From the IMG/VR virus record IMGVR_UViG_3300025536_000030, positions 1-35,114 of that record: 35,114 nucleotides of DNA; one strand, 5' to 3'. Shown here one piece after another: positions 1-35,114 of the stretch (positions are counted from its first letter, which is position 1; every line of letters starts with the position of its first letter). The notes below the pieces were generated by a model. It was not told the origin of the DNA, did not search any database, and saw only the letters and a list, made by a program, of their open reading frames with translations. The translations under genes were made by a program, and so were the position numbers. Source of the DNA: a virus.

Positions 1-1323
1 TCTAAGGTTATTAGAAGCGGCAGTTACGAGGTTATAGGTAGTTCCGTTAGCCGGAGTAGCCGTCGTCGTACCGGCGGAGGTAAGAGATCCGCTTACCGCT
101 AGAGTAACGGCTCGAAGAATATCGACCGGTATAGGAGAGTTCGTAGTCTGTCGGGTATCTTGTACGACCGTATCTATAGCCGAGTAATTACTTACCGAGA
201 CGTATCCGATAGTCCACGTAGTCGTAGTAGCCGGAGCGGTAGAGCCGTTAGCCATACGGATTTGAACTTTAAGCTCTACGTCGTCCGGTACGTTCTCGTC
301 TCGAGAAGCCCTTATAGTAGAACGAACCGTAGCCGAACTCGCTACTAACTGATCGCTAAAGATAGCCGTAAGATCGTTACCGGTAATAATAGCTAAATGA
401 CCAGGAGAGGCGGTCGTACTTATCGTAGCGGTCGTATCTCCGGTAGCGTATCCTCGACGTTGCGTATCGAACTTAGCTTGCGTAGCTGTCGTAGCGTCGT
501 ATAGGAGGTGGTAGTAATTCCAGCCGAAAGCGGATACCGTACCCGAACCGACGGCGAATCCGGCGACGGTAAAGGTTACGTTATCTCCAGATACCGAAGC
601 GATTGCGTATCGTCCGCTAAGGAACGTACCAGTACCGACGAATCCGCCTAAATACATAGACTGACCGACGTTAGCCGACGTAAATCCGTGTCCTGCCGGC
701 ATTGTTACGACGATAGCCGTAGCCGAACTAATCGTATAAGCTAGTCCGTCTCCGATTACGTCTACGAGTTCGACGAAGAAGTTATTATTCGCTATACGTT
801 GCGATAGAGTACTTCTCGCTCGAAGTCGGACGCCTCCCTTAAAGGACTCGTTAGAACGGATAATAGTCTCGGCTCGAGCGGTCGTACCGGAAGTAAGTAC
901 TAAGTTACCGCCGGTCTGATTTACGCCCTGTCCGGTAGCGATAGATCCGATAAGTCCGCCCCACTCGGTATCGACGTTATTAGAGATCGCTTTAGCGAAG
1001 CTAATACGGCGTACGTTTTGCGGTCGAGGAGTAACTACTACGGCTTCGTGATCGCTGTCGGGAACTTCGCTAGCTAATAGCTCTACGTCTACCCATATCT
1101 GTAGATCGTCGGCGTTATCCATAGCGGAGGTATCGTAGTCGAGGGTAAGTACGTTAGTCGCTACCGAACCGCCGAGGGTAGGCTCGCAGAAGTTATAAAT
1201 TATAATTCCGTCGGTTACGTTCGTAATAACGAGGACTTGCTCTAGGCTAATAGAAGCGTAGTCGCTAAAAGTAATCGTCTTAGCCGTCTTATCGAAAGTA
1301 TAGTTTGTAATAAGTTTTTTCAT
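1..1323 (-). CDS. Large virion protein, N-terminal part (continues at 34988 across the junction)
   Basis: Leftward reading frame starting at ATG 1323 (MKKLITNYTF), ten bases after the collagen-like gene and preceded by a GGGAG ribosome site. It is open to the left edge and resumes in frame at 34988, ending with TAG at 34689: 540 codons, 539 residues. The protein is rich in Thr, Ser, Ala, Gly and Val with many short beta-strand-like stretches, and has few Lys or Cys, as in virion surface or fibre proteins. I do not recognise a named family. Its position between the portal/collagen-like genes and the protease/capsid genes suggests a head-associated or adhesion protein. The part shown here is about residues 1-440. 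Confidence 0.85.
   Translation of the reverse strand, partial: MKKLITNYTFDKTAKTITFSDYASISLEQVLVITNVTDGIIIYNFCEPTLGGSVATNVLTLDYDTSAMDNADDLQIWVDVELLASEVPDSDHEAVVVTPRPQNVRRISFAKAISNNVDTEWGGLIGSIATGQGVNQTGGNLVLTSGTTARAETIIRSNESFKGGVRLRARSTLSQRIANNNFFVELVDVIGDGLAYTISSATAIVVTMPAGHGFTSANVGQSMYLGGFVGTGTFLSGRYAIASVSGDNVTFTVAGFAVGSGTVSAFGWNYYHLLYDATTATQAKFDTQRRGYATGDTTATISTTASPGHLAIITGNDLTAIFSDQLVASSATVRSTIRASRDENVPDDVELKVQIRMANGSTAPATTTTWTIGYVSVSNYSAIDTVVQDTRQTTNSPIPVDILRAVTLAVSGSLTSAGTTTATPANGTTYNLVTAASNNLR
4..129. repeat. Terminal direct repeat, left copy (circular overlap)
   Basis: Bases 4-129 are identical to 34989-35114 (126 bp). The first three bases (tct) differ from the corresponding ggc at 34986-34988. 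The repeat lies inside one leftward gene whose frame continues exactly across the joint. This is what an assembler leaves at the ends of a circular or terminally redundant molecule, so it is probably an assembly overlap rather than a biological repeat. The three-base mismatch at the very end may be a read-end error or a strain variant. Confidence 0.9.
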
Positions 1324-7241: not shown

Positions 7242-7946
7242 CTATTTTATACACATATAAGCCCGAAAGTTAAAGCAAGACCAGATCGTCGTAGTCGAGC
7301 GGAATCGTTTATTAAGCTCGCCGACGAGTAGTTCTTCTTCGAAAGGTCGCATTATATCCCGAATATCTCGCTCTTTTTTAACGACTTCGGCTTCGGTAGT
7401 ATGAGCTAACTTATGATCCGTAGACCCTCCCTCGAGAATCCTAAAGGCGTTCGCCGAGTCCGGATAAACTTTTTCGGCTAGGATAAATCCGTATCCGGTA
7501 TCGAGAGAATCGCTAATAGAGTCGAGTACTCGTAGCCGGTCTTTAGGGTCGATAAACTGTAGCGTAAATAGCGATAGGATTAAGCTCGCCTCGGAGAATA
7601 CGTAGCCTTGCGTTACGTCCGCTTTATTAAACTTTACCGTCGGAGTATCTACGAAGTCCTTGGCGAAGTTATGATTAACGTCTATACCGACGTATTCGGC
7701 TTTACGGTCGGCGTACTTAGTATCGAGAGCGGAGATTAGCTTACCGGTAGAACAGCCTATATCGTAGACTCGCTTACCGCCGATAATAAAGTAATCGGAG
7801 AGAGCGAGTACCGTAGCTCCTAGCCGGTCGTAGTCTCGGATATGTAGGCTAATATGGTCGTCGAATCCCTCGATAGAATCGAAGCTAAACTTCTTCGTAA
7901 GATCGTAGCTCGCTTCGTGTACTGGCTCGTTTTCTGGCTTACTCAT
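7242..7946 (-). CDS. cmoA: CmoA-like carboxy-S-adenosylmethionine synthase
   Basis: 234 residues, class I SAM-dependent fold. Motif I is YDIGCSTG at 61-68 (YDLGCSLG in E. coli CmoA). Further CmoA-like signatures are LFTLQFIDPKDR at 126-137, FILAEK at 154-159 and a C-terminal CFNFRAY at 224-230 (CFNFGSL in CmoA). CmoA converts SAM and prephenate to carboxy-SAM. In bacteria CmoB then uses this for the tRNA wobble modification cmo5U. No CmoB is present in this phage. Instead the gene overlaps by 8 bases the end of a C5-cytosine methyltransferase with an altered motif X. The segment matching E. coli Arg199 (carboxylate contact, from memory) reads KKERDIRDIM at 190-199, so the Arg register is shifted or uncertain. 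I am confident of the CmoA relationship, less so of the exact product. Confidence 0.85.
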   Translation of the reverse strand: MSKPENEPVHEASYDLTKKFSFDSIEGFDDHISLHIRDYDRLGATVLALSDYFIIGGKRVYDIGCSTGKLISALDTKYADRKAEYVGIDVNHNFAKDFVDTPTVKFNKADVTQGYVFSEASLILSLFTLQFIDPKDRLRVLDSISDSLDTGYGFILAEKVYPDSANAFRILEGGSTDHKLAHTTEAEVVKKERDIRDIMRPFEEELLVGELNKRFRSTTTIWSCFNFRAYMCIK

Positions 7947-8913
7947 TTTCTAATATCTCCTTTATAGAATTAGCTATAGCTTCCGTTACCGGCGGAGTTA
8001 CCGCTCTACCGATCCCCTCCCTCGCTCGATTAGAGTCGACGGATTCGAAAGTAAAGTCGTCTCGGAGACCTTGTAGTCTCTTTAACTCTCGGACGGTAAA
8101 GCGTCTATTATCCCAATGATGTAGAGCGTTAGATCCCTTACCGCCGATAGTAGCGGTTATTGTAGGACTCGGACGGTACGGATTCGCCTTAACGAGATTA
8201 AAAGCGGATTCTCCCATAGCGAGATCTTTAAGTTTAGGGTAGATCGAATACTTCTTAATATCGGCTTCGGCTAGCTCCTCCGGCGTAGCGACAATACCGT
8301 CTAAAGCTCGTCCGGCGGTAATCGGAGACCGGCGTTTAAGTACGAGGTCGAAGTTATCGCCGACTATATCCTTACGTCCTCCGATAATAAAGACCCTATT
8401 CCGACTCTGCGGTACTCCGAAGTCTTTAGAGTTTAGTAGGAAGATCCGGATCTTATATTCTTTCGGGAAGCTCTTTAAGATATAGCTTAGGTAGGCTTTA
8501 TTATTACCGAGGATTAAGCCTTTTACGTTTTCGGCGACGAAGAACTTAGGACGGATAGCGTCGACGAAGCGGATATACTCGAAGAATAGATCGTCCGTAA
8601 CTTGCGTCTTATTACCGTAGCTCTTAGCCTTACCCCAGCCTTTAGAGCCTTTACCGGATACCGAGAAGCTAGAGCAAGGCGGAGAGCCGTCGAGGACGTC
8701 GAGTTCGCCTACCTTTAAGCCGAGGTCTTTAATAATTTCGAGAGGATCGAGCTTTCGAATATCCTCCTCGTAGAGCCTCGTCTCGGGGTGATTATCTCGA
8801 TATACCTTAGCTTGGTAGTCGAGGAACTCTACCGACGCTAGGACGTCCGCTCCTGCGGCTAAGTATCCCTCGGAGCTACCGCCGATACCGGAGAATAAGC
8901 TAATTACCCTCAC
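7939..8913 (-). CDS. C5-cytosine DNA methyltransferase with motif-X Asn-to-Arg (predicted carboxymethyltransferase)
   Basis: 324 residues with the full C5-MTase order: motif I LFSGIGGSSEG from 6, motif IV DGSPPCSSFS with catalytic Cys80, motif VI ENV at 128-130, motif VIII QSRNRVFIIG at 169-178, a target-recognition region about 190-265, motif IX RELKRLQGL at 275-283 and motif X at 301-313. Motif X reads IGRAVTPPVTEAI: residue 303 is Arg where the family nearly always has Asn (GNAVPPP; Asn304 in M.HhaI). Substituting Lys or Arg at this Asn in M.MpeI (Asn374) is reported to let the enzyme take carboxy-SAM. The carboxy-SAM synthase homologue is the next gene (8-base overlap), and a ParB-like gene precedes it (14-base overlap). 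Predicted product: 5-carboxymethylcytosine. Ordinary 5-methylation is the fallback. The target sequence is unknown. Confidence 0.92.
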   Translation of the reverse strand: MRVISLFSGIGGSSEGYLAAGADVLASVEFLDYQAKVYRDNHPETRLYEEDIRKLDPLEIIKDLGLKVGELDVLDGSPPCSSFSVSGKGSKGWGKAKSYGNKTQVTDDLFFEYIRFVDAIRPKFFVAENVKGLILGNNKAYLSYILKSFPKEYKIRIFLLNSKDFGVPQSRNRVFIIGGRKDIVGDNFDLVLKRRSPITAGRALDGIVATPEELAEADIKKYSIYPKLKDLAMGESAFNLVKANPYRPSPTITATIGGKGSNALHHWDNRRFTVRELKRLQGLRDDFTFESVDSNRAREGIGRAVTPPVTEAIANSIKEILENE

Positions 8914-9541
8914 GGTCGTTTATAATTTCTCGGACTCTCTCGATTAGAGCCTCGCTTATAGGTATTTCGAACTCGCAACGAGGACAGTTTATACAGTCTT
9001 TATCTTCGTTTAAGTAGTCGTCGGCGTTTAATTCTTTCGAGGCGTCTTCGTCTTCGGACGGCGAAAGGCGGTTAACTATATCGGATACCGGCGTAATCTT
9101 AGTCGCTACGGAATAGACCTCGGTATTAACTTTATTTAGAGTCATTAACTCGGCGAGCTTTAACTCGTTATTAGTACCGATAGAGTCGTTATGAGATAAG
9201 GCTAGCTCGATCTTAGCCTGATTAGCGGTCTCGAACGTACGCTCCGACTTCTTACCGTCTACTACGATATGGACGCTATCTCCAGCTTCGACGATCTCTA
9301 CGACAACGACCTTAGCGAACTCTTTACCGATCTTCTGATAAGCTCGAAGACGAGTATTACCGCCGAGAACTTCTCCCTCGGTAGTAACTAGCATAGTCGA
9401 GTGTTCGCCTAGCTTAATCTGTTCGAGTAATCGTTCGAAGTCTTTAGCCTCTACGTCTCGAGGATTATCTTTATAGAGGTAGAGATCTTTAACCGGAGCG
9501 AGTGTTACTCCGTTATCTCTTACGAACTTAATCTTAGTCAT
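8900..9541 (-). CDS. ParB/Srx N-terminal-like protein with C-terminal Cys-rich knuckle
   Basis: 213 residues. The first about 85 residues match the ParB N-terminal (ParB/Srx) fold: KDNPRD near 24, then VLGGNTRLRAYQKIG at 58-72, equivalent to the ParB GxRR/GNTR nucleotide-binding box. An acidic linker at 161-180 leads to CINCPRC (Cys183, 186, 189), a possible zinc site. ParB-like domains are often encoded next to phage DNA methyltransferases. Here the gene overlaps the C5-MTase by 14 bases and heads the modification operon. It may bind DNA or nucleotide to help or direct modification, but that is inference. The start at 9541 follows a GGAGACCAG ribosome site. Confidence 0.8.
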   Translation of the reverse strand: MTKIKFVRDNGVTLAPVKDLYLYKDNPRDVEAKDFERLLEQIKLGEHSTMLVTTEGEVLGGNTRLRAYQKIGKEFAKVVVVEIVEAGDSVHIVVDGKKSERTFETANQAKIELALSHNDSIGTNNELKLAELMTLNKVNTEVYSVATKITPVSDIVNRLSPSEDEDASKELNADDYLNEDKDCINCPRCEFEIPISEALIERVREIINDREGN

Positions 9542-13686: not shown

Positions 13687-15717
13687 ATGGAACCACAAAT
13701 AGACTACTGGAGTTACTCTAGTATGTCGGCGTTACTAAGTAATCCGTTAAACTTTAAGAAGAAGTATATCCTTAAAGTTTACGACGATCCTATGAGCCCT
13801 AGCGGTGTCGTCGGTACGGCTTGCCATAAGGTAGCCGAGGCGTACTTCGGGAACGGTAAGAGCGAACAGGAAGCGATCCAAGCCGGATACGACTATATCG
13901 ACTCTATAAGCCATACCGAGATAGATTACGGTAAGACCGGCTCGAAAGAGAAAATACTTAAAGACTTCGAACAAGCTACTAGATTCTTCTTCGAGGAGCT
14001 TCCGCAGTATCACGAGATACTAGGAGTCGAATACTCGATTACTACCGAGATTACGACCGTAGACGGTAATACTCTACCTTTACCGGCGAAAGCTAAAATC
14101 GACTTAATCTCTAAGAATAAACTCGGCGAGATAGAAGTTATCGACTGGAAGTTTACCCGAGGCTATACGGATTCCGGCGTAACAGACTTCGGTAAGTTCT
14201 TACAGGCTATGTTCGACTACCATATCGTACTAGCTAAGTTCGGCGAAGCTCCGGCTCGAGTTATCTTTAGGGAGGTTAAAATCTCTAAGAATAAAGATAA
14301 TACTCCGCAGATACAGGACTACGTTATCGACTTTAAAGAGGGAACGATTTACGGCGACTTCGCTACGTTCTATAAGCTCTATAACGATACGACTAAGTAT
14401 ATTAGCTCGCCGACCTCTATCTACCTACCGAACCCTAACGACTACTTTAACGGACAAAACTCGTTCGATAGCTTCCGACTCGGAATTATCGGTACGGAAG
14501 CTCCGGTAGCCGTTAAGCATAAGGTAGCTCAAAAGACTTTCGTCGATAAGAACTACGTCGCCTCCGCTACCGAGCGAGTCGAGAATAAGGACTTATCGGA
14601 CGAGGAGAAGATCCGCTTTAAATTACAAGAGTTCGCTATGCCGGTCGAGATGTCCGAGACCTACGTCGGAGCGAGCGTTACGAAGTATACGCTTAAACCG
14701 AGCCGAGGTATCCCGATGTCTAAAATATCCCGAGTCGGTAACGATATAGCTCTAGCTCTAGGAGCGGAGAGCGTACGTATCGAAGCTCCGATTCGAGGAA
14801 CGAACCTCGTCGGTATCGAAGTACCGTCTAAGAACCGGAAGCGAGTCGACCTCGTAGAGAGCCACTTCCAAAAAGGAACGACGAATATCCCTATCGGAAT
14901 CGACGTATTCGGTAAGGTCCATTATAAAGACCTCGCCGATATGCCTCACTTACTAATAGCCGGAGCTACCGGTAGCGGTAAATCCGTAATGCTAAACGTA
15001 ATCCTAACCGCTCTAACGAAGCAGAACTCGCCGGACGCTCTAAAGCTAATCCTCGTCGACCCTAAAGAAGTCGAGCTAGCTAGCTACGCTAAGTTAAAGC
15101 ACCTCGACCGACCTATCGTTACTACGAACGCCGGAGCTATCGAAGTAGTAGACTACGCCGTTAAGTTAATGGAAGACCGCTATAAGATCCTAGCTAAAGC
15201 CGGAGTAAAGAACCTCGAGGAGTATAACGCTAAGAACGCTCCGCTCCCTCGCTACGTCGTTTTAATCGACGAGTTCGCCGATCTAATGATGTCGGCTAAG
15301 AAGACCGCTAACGTAGATCTCGATATTAAAGAGTTTACCGAACGGATTAACGGAGTCGCTCTTAGGAAGCTCGTAGCCGGTAAGAAGATTACTCAGAAAG
15401 ACGTATCCGGTCTAATTAAGGAGCTTAAAGAAGAAGCTCTACCGGACGTCGAGACCTCGATAATCCGAATCGCTCAGAAAGCCCGAGCCGTCGGTATCCA
15501 CCTTATACTAGCTACCCAGCGTCCGAGTGCGGACGTAGTAACCGGTCTAATTAAGGCGAATATCCCGACGAAGATAGCGTTCGCTACTACCTCCGAAGTT
15601 AACTCTCGAATTATTCTCGACGAGTCCGGAGCGGAGGAGCTAATCGGTAAAGGCGATATGCTATTCCAAGATCCGAACTCCCGAGACCTCCGACGGTTAC
15701 AGGGATTGTATATTTAA
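13687..15717 (+). CDS. RecB/Cas4-type nuclease fused to an FtsK/SpoIIIE DNA translocase
   Basis: 676 residues, two enzymes in one chain. Residues 1-250 are a PD-(D/E)XK nuclease of the RecB/Cas4 type: GTACHKVAEAYF with His47, KIDLI with Asp139, VIDWKF with Asp153 and Lys155, and QAMFDY with Gln173 and Tyr178. From about 330 it reads as FtsK: a beta/alpha domain (VGIEVPSKNRKRVDL), Walker A GATGSGKSV at 426-434, Walker B YVVLIDEFADLM at 523-534 and LATQRPSADVVTGLIKANIP at 608-627. About 45 extra residues interrupt the motor after Walker B. The chain ends at RRLQGLYI, so the DNA-sequence-reading gamma winged helix is absent and no membrane domain exists. Placed between recT and rusA, it is probably a motor-driven end-resection nuclease. 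No cleavage or frameshift separates the domains. Confidence 0.93.
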   Translation: MEPQIDYWSYSSMSALLSNPLNFKKKYILKVYDDPMSPSGVVGTACHKVAEAYFGNGKSEQEAIQAGYDYIDSISHTEIDYGKTGSKEKILKDFEQATRFFFEELPQYHEILGVEYSITTEITTVDGNTLPLPAKAKIDLISKNKLGEIEVIDWKFTRGYTDSGVTDFGKFLQAMFDYHIVLAKFGEAPARVIFREVKISKNKDNTPQIQDYVIDFKEGTIYGDFATFYKLYNDTTKYISSPTSIYLPNPNDYFNGQNSFDSFRLGIIGTEAPVAVKHKVAQKTFVDKNYVASATERVENKDLSDEEKIRFKLQEFAMPVEMSETYVGASVTKYTLKPSRGIPMSKISRVGNDIALALGAESVRIEAPIRGTNLVGIEVPSKNRKRVDLVESHFQKGTTNIPIGIDVFGKVHYKDLADMPHLLIAGATGSGKSVMLNVILTALTKQNSPDALKLILVDPKEVELASYAKLKHLDRPIVTTNAGAIEVVDYAVKLMEDRYKILAKAGVKNLEEYNAKNAPLPRYVVLIDEFADLMMSAKKTANVDLDIKEFTERINGVALRKLVAGKKITQKDVSGLIKELKEEALPDVETSIIRIAQKARAVGIHLILATQRPSADVVTGLIKANIPTKIAFATTSEVNSRIILDESGAEELIGKGDMLFQDPNSRDLRRLQGLYI

Positions 15718-34688: not shown

Positions 34689-35114
34689 CTAGATATAGGT
34701 AGCGTTAACCTGTATTCCTGCGACGGCGTTAGTAGCGTCCGTAGCTCCTGCTCCTCCGACTACGGCGATAGCGATACCGGTAGCGAATCGTTTACCGATA
34801 GCTCCGAAGTTAAAGCTTTTTTCTCCTACTCCTGCGGCGGTCGCCGGAATAGCTATCGTTAATACCGGAACGTCGGAGGCGACTACCGGAGCGGTCGCTT
34901 TGTTATAGAGCTTAATATAAGCCGGAGTAGCGGTCGGATTAGATACGGTTATCTCGTATAAGTTACCGGCGGTAGCTTTAATAGCGGCAAGGTTATTAGA
35001 AGCGGCAGTTACGAGGTTATAGGTAGTTCCGTTAGCCGGAGTAGCCGTCGTCGTACCGGCGGAGGTAAGAGATCCGCTTACCGCTAGAGTAACGGCTCGA
35101 AGAATATCGACCGG
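34689..35114 (-). CDS. Large virion protein, C-terminal part (continues from base 4 across the junction)
   Basis: C-terminal continuation of the gene that starts at 1323. After the junction it reads through about 100 further codons and stops with TAG at 34689-34691. The C-terminal segment is again Ala/Thr/Gly/Val-rich and beta-rich, ending with VNATYI. Bases 34989-35114 duplicate 4-129, so the residues they encode should be counted once. The stop is 52 bases before the start of the protease/scaffold gene at 34636. The function is inferred only from context and composition (virion protein). Confidence 0.85.
   Translation of the reverse strand, partial: PVDILRAVTLAVSGSLTSAGTTTATPANGTTYNLVTAASNNLAAIKATAGNLYEITVSNPTATPAYIKLYNKATAPVVASDVPVLTIAIPATAAGVGEKSFNFGAIGKRFATGIAIAVVGGAGATDATNAVAGIQVNATYI
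34989..35114. repeat. Terminal direct repeat, right copy (circular overlap)
   Basis: Right-hand copy of the 126-bp end overlap, matching 4-129 base for base. Removing one copy leaves about 34,985 bp of unique sequence and joins the two pieces of a 539-residue virion protein without a frame break. Confidence 0.9.

Follow-up and report, generated by a model that had tools for sequence, protein, structure and literature searches.

The window, which is the whole of the 35,114-bp virus record IMGVR_UViG_3300025536_000030, carries on its minus strand a run of three overlapping genes that is very probably an operon for cytosine carboxymethylation by CmoX and CmoA, like the one known from Synechococcus phage S-B43, with bare 5-carboxymethylcytosine (5cxmC) predicted in the virion. 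The first-pass annotation had proposed that this phage makes its own carboxy-SAM (Cx-SAM) and uses it in a C5-cytosine methyltransferase (MTase) with an arginine in motif X. The proposal is supported by the match of the pair to S-B43 in sequence, fold, key residues and adjacency, and it appears to be right, but the pathway has already been published (Yang et al., Nat Commun, December 2025; PMC12783734). In S-B43, CmoA produces Cx-SAM and CmoX then yields 5cxmC, on the evidence of biochemistry, a crystal structure and mass spectrometry of virion DNA, and CmoY acts as an amide ligase (PMC12783734). This is the only report of natural 5cxmC found in the literature. Relative to the published system, the new elements are a small closed genome and the apparent lack of a ligase.

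The operon and the genome that carries it

Both the MTase gene and the gene for the CmoA homologue are open, intact frames at the annotated positions and overlap by 8 bp, and the ParB-like gene that heads the run overlaps the MTase gene by 14 bp (Table 1). ParBc genes are common beside CmoX, both in our own count and in the published survey of IMG/VR, UniProt and MGnify, which lists 5,615 CmoX candidates together with 4,257 CmoA, 2,251 ligase and 1,660 ParBc genes (PMC12783734). Measured against a near relative (contig L002, 86% identical), dN/dS is 0.195 for the MTase and 0.100 for CmoA; both genes are under purifying selection with their reading frames kept, and the pair is not a product of chance.

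Table 1. Features of the window discussed in the text, with the evidence for each
Feature	Position	Strand	Evidence
cmoA, phage type, predicted carboxy-SAM synthase, 234 aa	7242..7946	-	TIGR00740, phrog_4752, S-B43 CmoA, Foldseek
CmoA Arg196 codon, one helix turn past the E. coli Arg199 position	7359..7361	-	alignment, 199 related proteins
cmoX, predicted C5-cytosine carboxymethyltransferase, 324 aa, GTG start	7939..8913	-	Pfam, 8YF3, AlphaFold2/Foldseek
Arg303 codon, motif X (SpCmoX Arg350, HhaI Asn304)	8005..8007	-	alignments; computed from gene start 8913
Catalytic Cys80 codon, SPPC motif (SpCmoX Cys98)	8674..8676	-	alignment
ParB-like protein, 213 aa, first of the overlapping trio	8900..9541	-	phrog_620 (ParB-like), E 1.3e-8; phrog_940, E 3.4e-9
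End repeat, left copy	4..129		blastn, 100% over 126 bp
End repeat, right copy	34989..35114		blastn, 100% over 126 bp

The MTase matches the Pfam DNA_methylase family (E 4e-55) and has the SPPC catalytic motif at residues 77-80. Its top sequence match in the PDB is 8YF3 (E 1.5e-55, runner-up 4.8e-28), the structure of SpCmoX from S-B43 with Cx-SAM, in which the motif-X residue Arg350 touches the carboxylate (PMC12783734). The AlphaFold2 model of the window protein (pLDDT 93.3) likewise has 8YF3 as its top Foldseek match (E 6.7e-27, TM 0.83/0.81), which places 8YF3 ahead of all SAM-using C5-MTases by sequence and by fold. The residues reported to contact Cx-SAM or to act in catalysis in SpCmoX, namely F25, E47, F48, D69, the catalytic C98 and R350 (PMC12783734), align with F7, E29, F30, D51, C80 and R303 of the window MTase; the alignment confirms the two residues singled out by the first-pass annotation, Cys80 and Arg303, and shows that all published Cx-SAM contacts of SpCmoX are kept. 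The window protein therefore combines the three features by which CmoX is recognized: a C5-MTase fold with SPPC, an arginine in motif X and a CmoA neighbor.

The neighboring protein contains all of the CmoA motifs named earlier (YDIGCSTG, LFTLQFIDP and CFNF) and matches phrog_4752 (E 7e-41) as well as NCBIfam TIGR00740 (E 1.7e-19), the latter at 70.4 bits and thus under the curated cut-off of 193.3. The experimentally active S-B43 CmoA, to which it is 33% identical, also scores under this cut-off (115.6 bits), and the window protein is for that reason filed as a phage-type CmoA rather than as an equivalog. Its AlphaFold2 model (pLDDT 84.9) has E. coli CmoA (4IWN/4GEK, E about 1e-17) as the top Foldseek matches. 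In the E. coli enzyme, Arg199 binds the carboxylate by a salt bridge (PMC3663124), and the register of this residue within the segment KKERDIRDIM had been flagged as uncertain. The register is now settled: window K191 corresponds to E. coli K198, E192 to R199 and R196 to position 203, which leaves Glu192 in the Arg199 column. Displacement of Arg199 by an alignment gap was ruled out, because the flanks are gap-free and the lysine of the K198 column is invariant in 199/199 related proteins. Glutamate occupies the Arg199 column in 159 of these 199 proteins and arginine the R196 column in 127, the active S-B43 CmoA being among both groups, so the earlier caveat, although valid for the E. coli enzyme, is no argument against phage CmoA. 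With the site residues Y39, D62, G64, S66, D89, D110, E158, K191, E192 and R196, the window protein shows the CmoA fold, the SAM-site residues, the K198/E199 pair and the arginine at position 203 that characterize the phage type.

The record ends in a 126-bp direct repeat with identical copies, and a structural-protein ORF that leaves its left end resumes at the right end. The repeat and the junction-spanning ORF show that the genome is essentially complete, with a circular map of ~34,985 bp. Its assignment to the linear class in the collection probably stems from three extra bases at the left end. Because the genome is essentially complete, the absence of genes from the record carries weight. 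The Asn_synthase domain of CmoY-type ligases (PF00733) has no match in the end-closed genome, CmoB (PF08003) has none anywhere in the record, in agreement with the first-pass annotation, and no tRNA gene was found in the record. The CmoA gene is followed by small unknown genes and by terminase, portal and tail genes. Genes for a head of Mu-like type, a tail of siphovirus type, an endolysin, RecT and an exonuclease-FtsK fusion make up the remaining genome. This fusion (13687-15717, 676 aa) adjoins the RecT gene and joins a PDDEXK_1 exonuclease domain (residues 8-184) to an FtsK alpha/SpoIIIE translocase; the PADLOC models SspH and mad8 match it via its FtsK part.

Motif-X arginine and CmoA among relatives

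CmoX relatives were collected from bacterial and archaeal genomes irrespective of their motif X. A CmoA gene lies within 10 kb of 36 of the 39 relatives with a motif-X arginine versus 1 of the 37 with asparagine or methionine, and this one exception (L195) has a doubtful CmoA. The corresponding Fisher p value of 5e-17 is nominal, since the loci are related by descent and not independent; in the tree, loci with the same motif-X residue (Arg, Asn or Met) cluster strongly. The co-occurrence that the first-pass annotation had suggested looking for is accordingly present, and the motif-X arginine gains independent statistical support as a mark of carboxymethyltransferases. CmoX and CmoA are encoded on the same strand in 170/170 pairs, mostly adjacent and less than 300 bp apart. 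The window CmoX falls into an eight-member clade (SH-aLRT 98) with prophages of the Bacteroidota genera Telluribacter, Spirosoma, Hymenobacter and Larkinella. No third gene besides CmoX and CmoA recurs in more than four loci of this clade; conserved third genes considered as an alternative ligase were rejected, the candidates being mostly antisense frames of CmoX or CmoA.

CmoA genes also occur in other settings. In Staphylococcus phages (L008 5947-7646, L011 5977-8495 and L256-L259), CmoA adjoins a C5-MTase with a GGVIN motif X, which has Gly rather than Arg at this position and SPCQ instead of SPPC, and which the published filter for SPPC plus Arg would miss. The GGVIN type is the only C5-MTase in the whole genomes of L008 and L011, L258 also has an Arg-type enzyme, and a CmoY homologue is additionally present in L011 and L258. 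These enzymes may represent a second, independent lineage of carboxymethyltransferases. Alcaligenes phage Afa-NA1 (L010) and Gordonia phage Evaa (L012) carry a CmoA homologue with zero C5-MTases (PF00145, whole records), and in Erwinia phage vB_EamM_Y3 (L009 5935-8526) the neighbors of CmoA are an Asn-synthase homologue and a 2OG-Fe(II) oxygenase, a C5-MTase-like frame (742 aa, split match) being found ~17 kb away. Three Verrucomicrobia MAGs (JABTUJ, JAOSKK and JAKQDD) hold three to six related CmoX and CmoA copies each (L179-L183, L185, L187-L193 and L200), two of which share one contig about 40 kb apart. As the copies in L191 are surrounded by genes for terminase, portal and head proteins, they probably belong to related phages or prophages.

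Avoidance of CA/TG across the genome

The strand-symmetric observed/expected ratio (obs/exp) of CA/TG in the window is 0.27, versus 1.74 for CG and 1.48 for TA, and GC is not depleted (0.94). At codon 3-1 junctions the ratio falls to 0.07 for CA and 0.12 for TG, and in the 15 window genes counted CTG makes up 1 of 496 leucine codons and GTG 3 of 468 valine codons. No 2.5-kb segment is free of the depletion (0.18-0.40), and intergenic DNA shows it as well. Among 231 random viral contigs used as background, a single one has a CA/TG obs/exp below 0.8 (L503, 0.43), and this is a 7.7-kb fragment with neither CmoX nor CmoA. The near relative L002 shares the depletion, and a second CmoX clade (L016, L017, L020, L109, L110, L112, L117 and L118) is CA/TG-poor at 0.29-0.56. 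Near-total avoidance in the window together with this second clade amounts to a strong genome-scale signal. CA depletion is seen in 10 of 157 CmoX/CmoA loci versus 1 of 231 background contigs; counted by clades this is two versus one, which corresponds to about p 0.1 by a rough clade count. When TerL relatives lacking CmoX were sought to serve as a matched control, only the same near-relative contig turned up, and a literature search for phage CA/TG avoidance found no paper.

The target of SpCmoX is GC (PMC12783734). The GC obs/exp is 0.50-0.71 in loci at least 83% identical to SpCmoX, and no background contig of similar G+C falls under 0.81. S-B43 and RN05-S have 0.67-0.72, versus 0.77-0.95 for ten cyanophages assumed to lack CmoX since they are not among the CmoA matches. 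Since S-B43-like phages are low in the very dinucleotide that their CmoX modifies, CmoX phages may shun their own target, which suggests that CA might be the target of the window CmoX. The full form of this idea, in which CmoX modifies the C of CA, the mark or incomplete marking is costly, CA/TG is purged and the depletion reports the target, has a further hint in the second CA-poor CmoX clade but is doubtful. Locus L014 is not CA-poor even though its target-recognition region is 50% identical to that of CA-poor L016, and this, together with the small number of known CmoX clades that are CA-poor, two in all, argues against CA as the target. A shared target of both CA-poor clades is also unsupported by target-recognition similarity, window and L016 being just 33% identical.

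Loss of CA/TG by deamination of the modified cytosine is unlikely, because at codon 3-1 junctions the G-to-A change would alter the protein and TG is nevertheless equally scarce there. The leftover CA and TG dinucleotides are conserved relative to L002 (0.80 and 0.77) like other dinucleotides, which also argues against deamination decay. Several palindromes are avoided in the window (observed/expected counts of 0/122 for CGCG, 1/66 for GCGC and 4/84 for GGCC), as would be expected if restriction pressure were heavy overall. L002 additionally avoids GATC (1 versus 31 expected), which the window does not (135 versus 166 expected); this contrast may reflect a difference in host or in restriction pressure.

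End product, alternatives and known counterparts

In the proposed mechanism, CmoA would convert host SAM and prephenate to carboxy-SAM, the supply of prephenate being assumed. CmoX would then flip the target cytosine out of the phage DNA, Cys80 would attack C6 of the flipped base and Arg303 would hold the carboxylate of carboxy-SAM while the carboxymethyl group is transferred to C5, giving 5cxmC and SAH. The bare base would most likely be kept in the virion and shield it from host nucleases; 5cxmC blocks HhaI in vitro (PMC12783734), and an anti-restriction purpose of the mark is plausible in this phage. The genes, their motifs, fold and selection, the co-occurrence and the closure of the genome are direct observations; the chemistry has been established with homologues, and the activity and purpose of the pair in this phage are inferred. 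Because no recognized CmoY-type ligase is encoded in the essentially complete genome, the bare acidic base is probably the final product.

One alternative accepts that 5cxmC is made and treats it as a mere intermediate whose carboxyl is then capped by a host amide ligase or by an unrecognized phage protein. S-B43 sets the precedent, its virions holding the glycine amide only, with free 5cxmC absent (PMC12783734), and the several window ORFs that match no family could include a non-homologous ligase. Capping is nonetheless unlikely in view of the absence of an Asn_synthase domain from the record, and within the CmoX clade of the window none of the eight members has a ligase nearby and no third gene recurs. 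The complete phages S-CRM01 and Mcat8 similarly lack PF00733.

Departing further from the carboxymethylation reading, the MTase could be a plain SAM-dependent 5-methylcytosine enzyme whose motif X merely varies, and CmoA could serve tRNA modification with a host CmoB or drain host SAM. A CmoB may be present in hosts, depletion of SAM is a possibility considered by Yang et al. (PMC12783734), and the CmoA score lies far under the bacterial equivalog cut-off. Against these points stand the joint occurrence of CmoA and motif-X arginine, which the Asn/Met relatives do not share, and the behavior of SpCmoX, which has the same arginine and uses Cx-SAM only, its R350N variant taking neither cofactor (PMC12783734); such an enzyme is highly improbable here. 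That one or both proteins are inactive remnants is more remote still; no observation favoring it was found, and against it stand the intact frames, the complete set of catalytic residues, the low dN/dS relative to L002 and the retention of the pair in eight divergent relatives.

The carboxymethylation operon can be set beside four known counterparts. The engineered M.MpeI N374K shows that a positive motif-X residue accepts Cx-SAM (cited in PMC12783734), but it is an artificial, CG-specific enzyme supplied with Cx-SAM and is unrelated in detail. Moraxella phage Mcat8 (KR093632) has the nearest CmoX of a named phage (41.5% identity), a CmoX-CmoA overlap and a whole genome without a PF00733 ligase; it differs in being another phage type with a CmoA that has neither Arg199 nor Arg203, and a search for a ParB-like neighbor detected none. 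The Cytophagales prophage pairs (Hymenobacter, Spirosoma, Larkinella and Telluribacter) belong to the same clade as the window and also have CmoA adjoining CmoX in a ligase-free vicinity, whereas their CmoX proteins are 47-49% identical to that of the window, CmoA precedes CmoX in them, the reverse of the window order, and their CA/TG is not depleted.

S-B43 itself shares with the window the adjacent CmoA and CmoX genes, the motif-X arginine, SPPC, all Cx-SAM contacts, a phage-type CmoA without the E. coli Arg199 and the absence of CmoB. In contrast to S-B43, the window has a CmoX with an overall identity of about 38% whose target-recognition region differs (28% identity), a ParB-like gene in the operon, and a genome that is poor in CA/TG rather than GC. 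S-B43 encodes CmoY, whereas the essentially complete 35-kb genome of the window has no recognized CmoY-type ligase. The natural DNA modification that has only just been published is thereby extended to a small phage whose head genes are Mu-like and whose virion is predicted to end at the bare acidic base 5cxmC, an end point not seen in the published phage.
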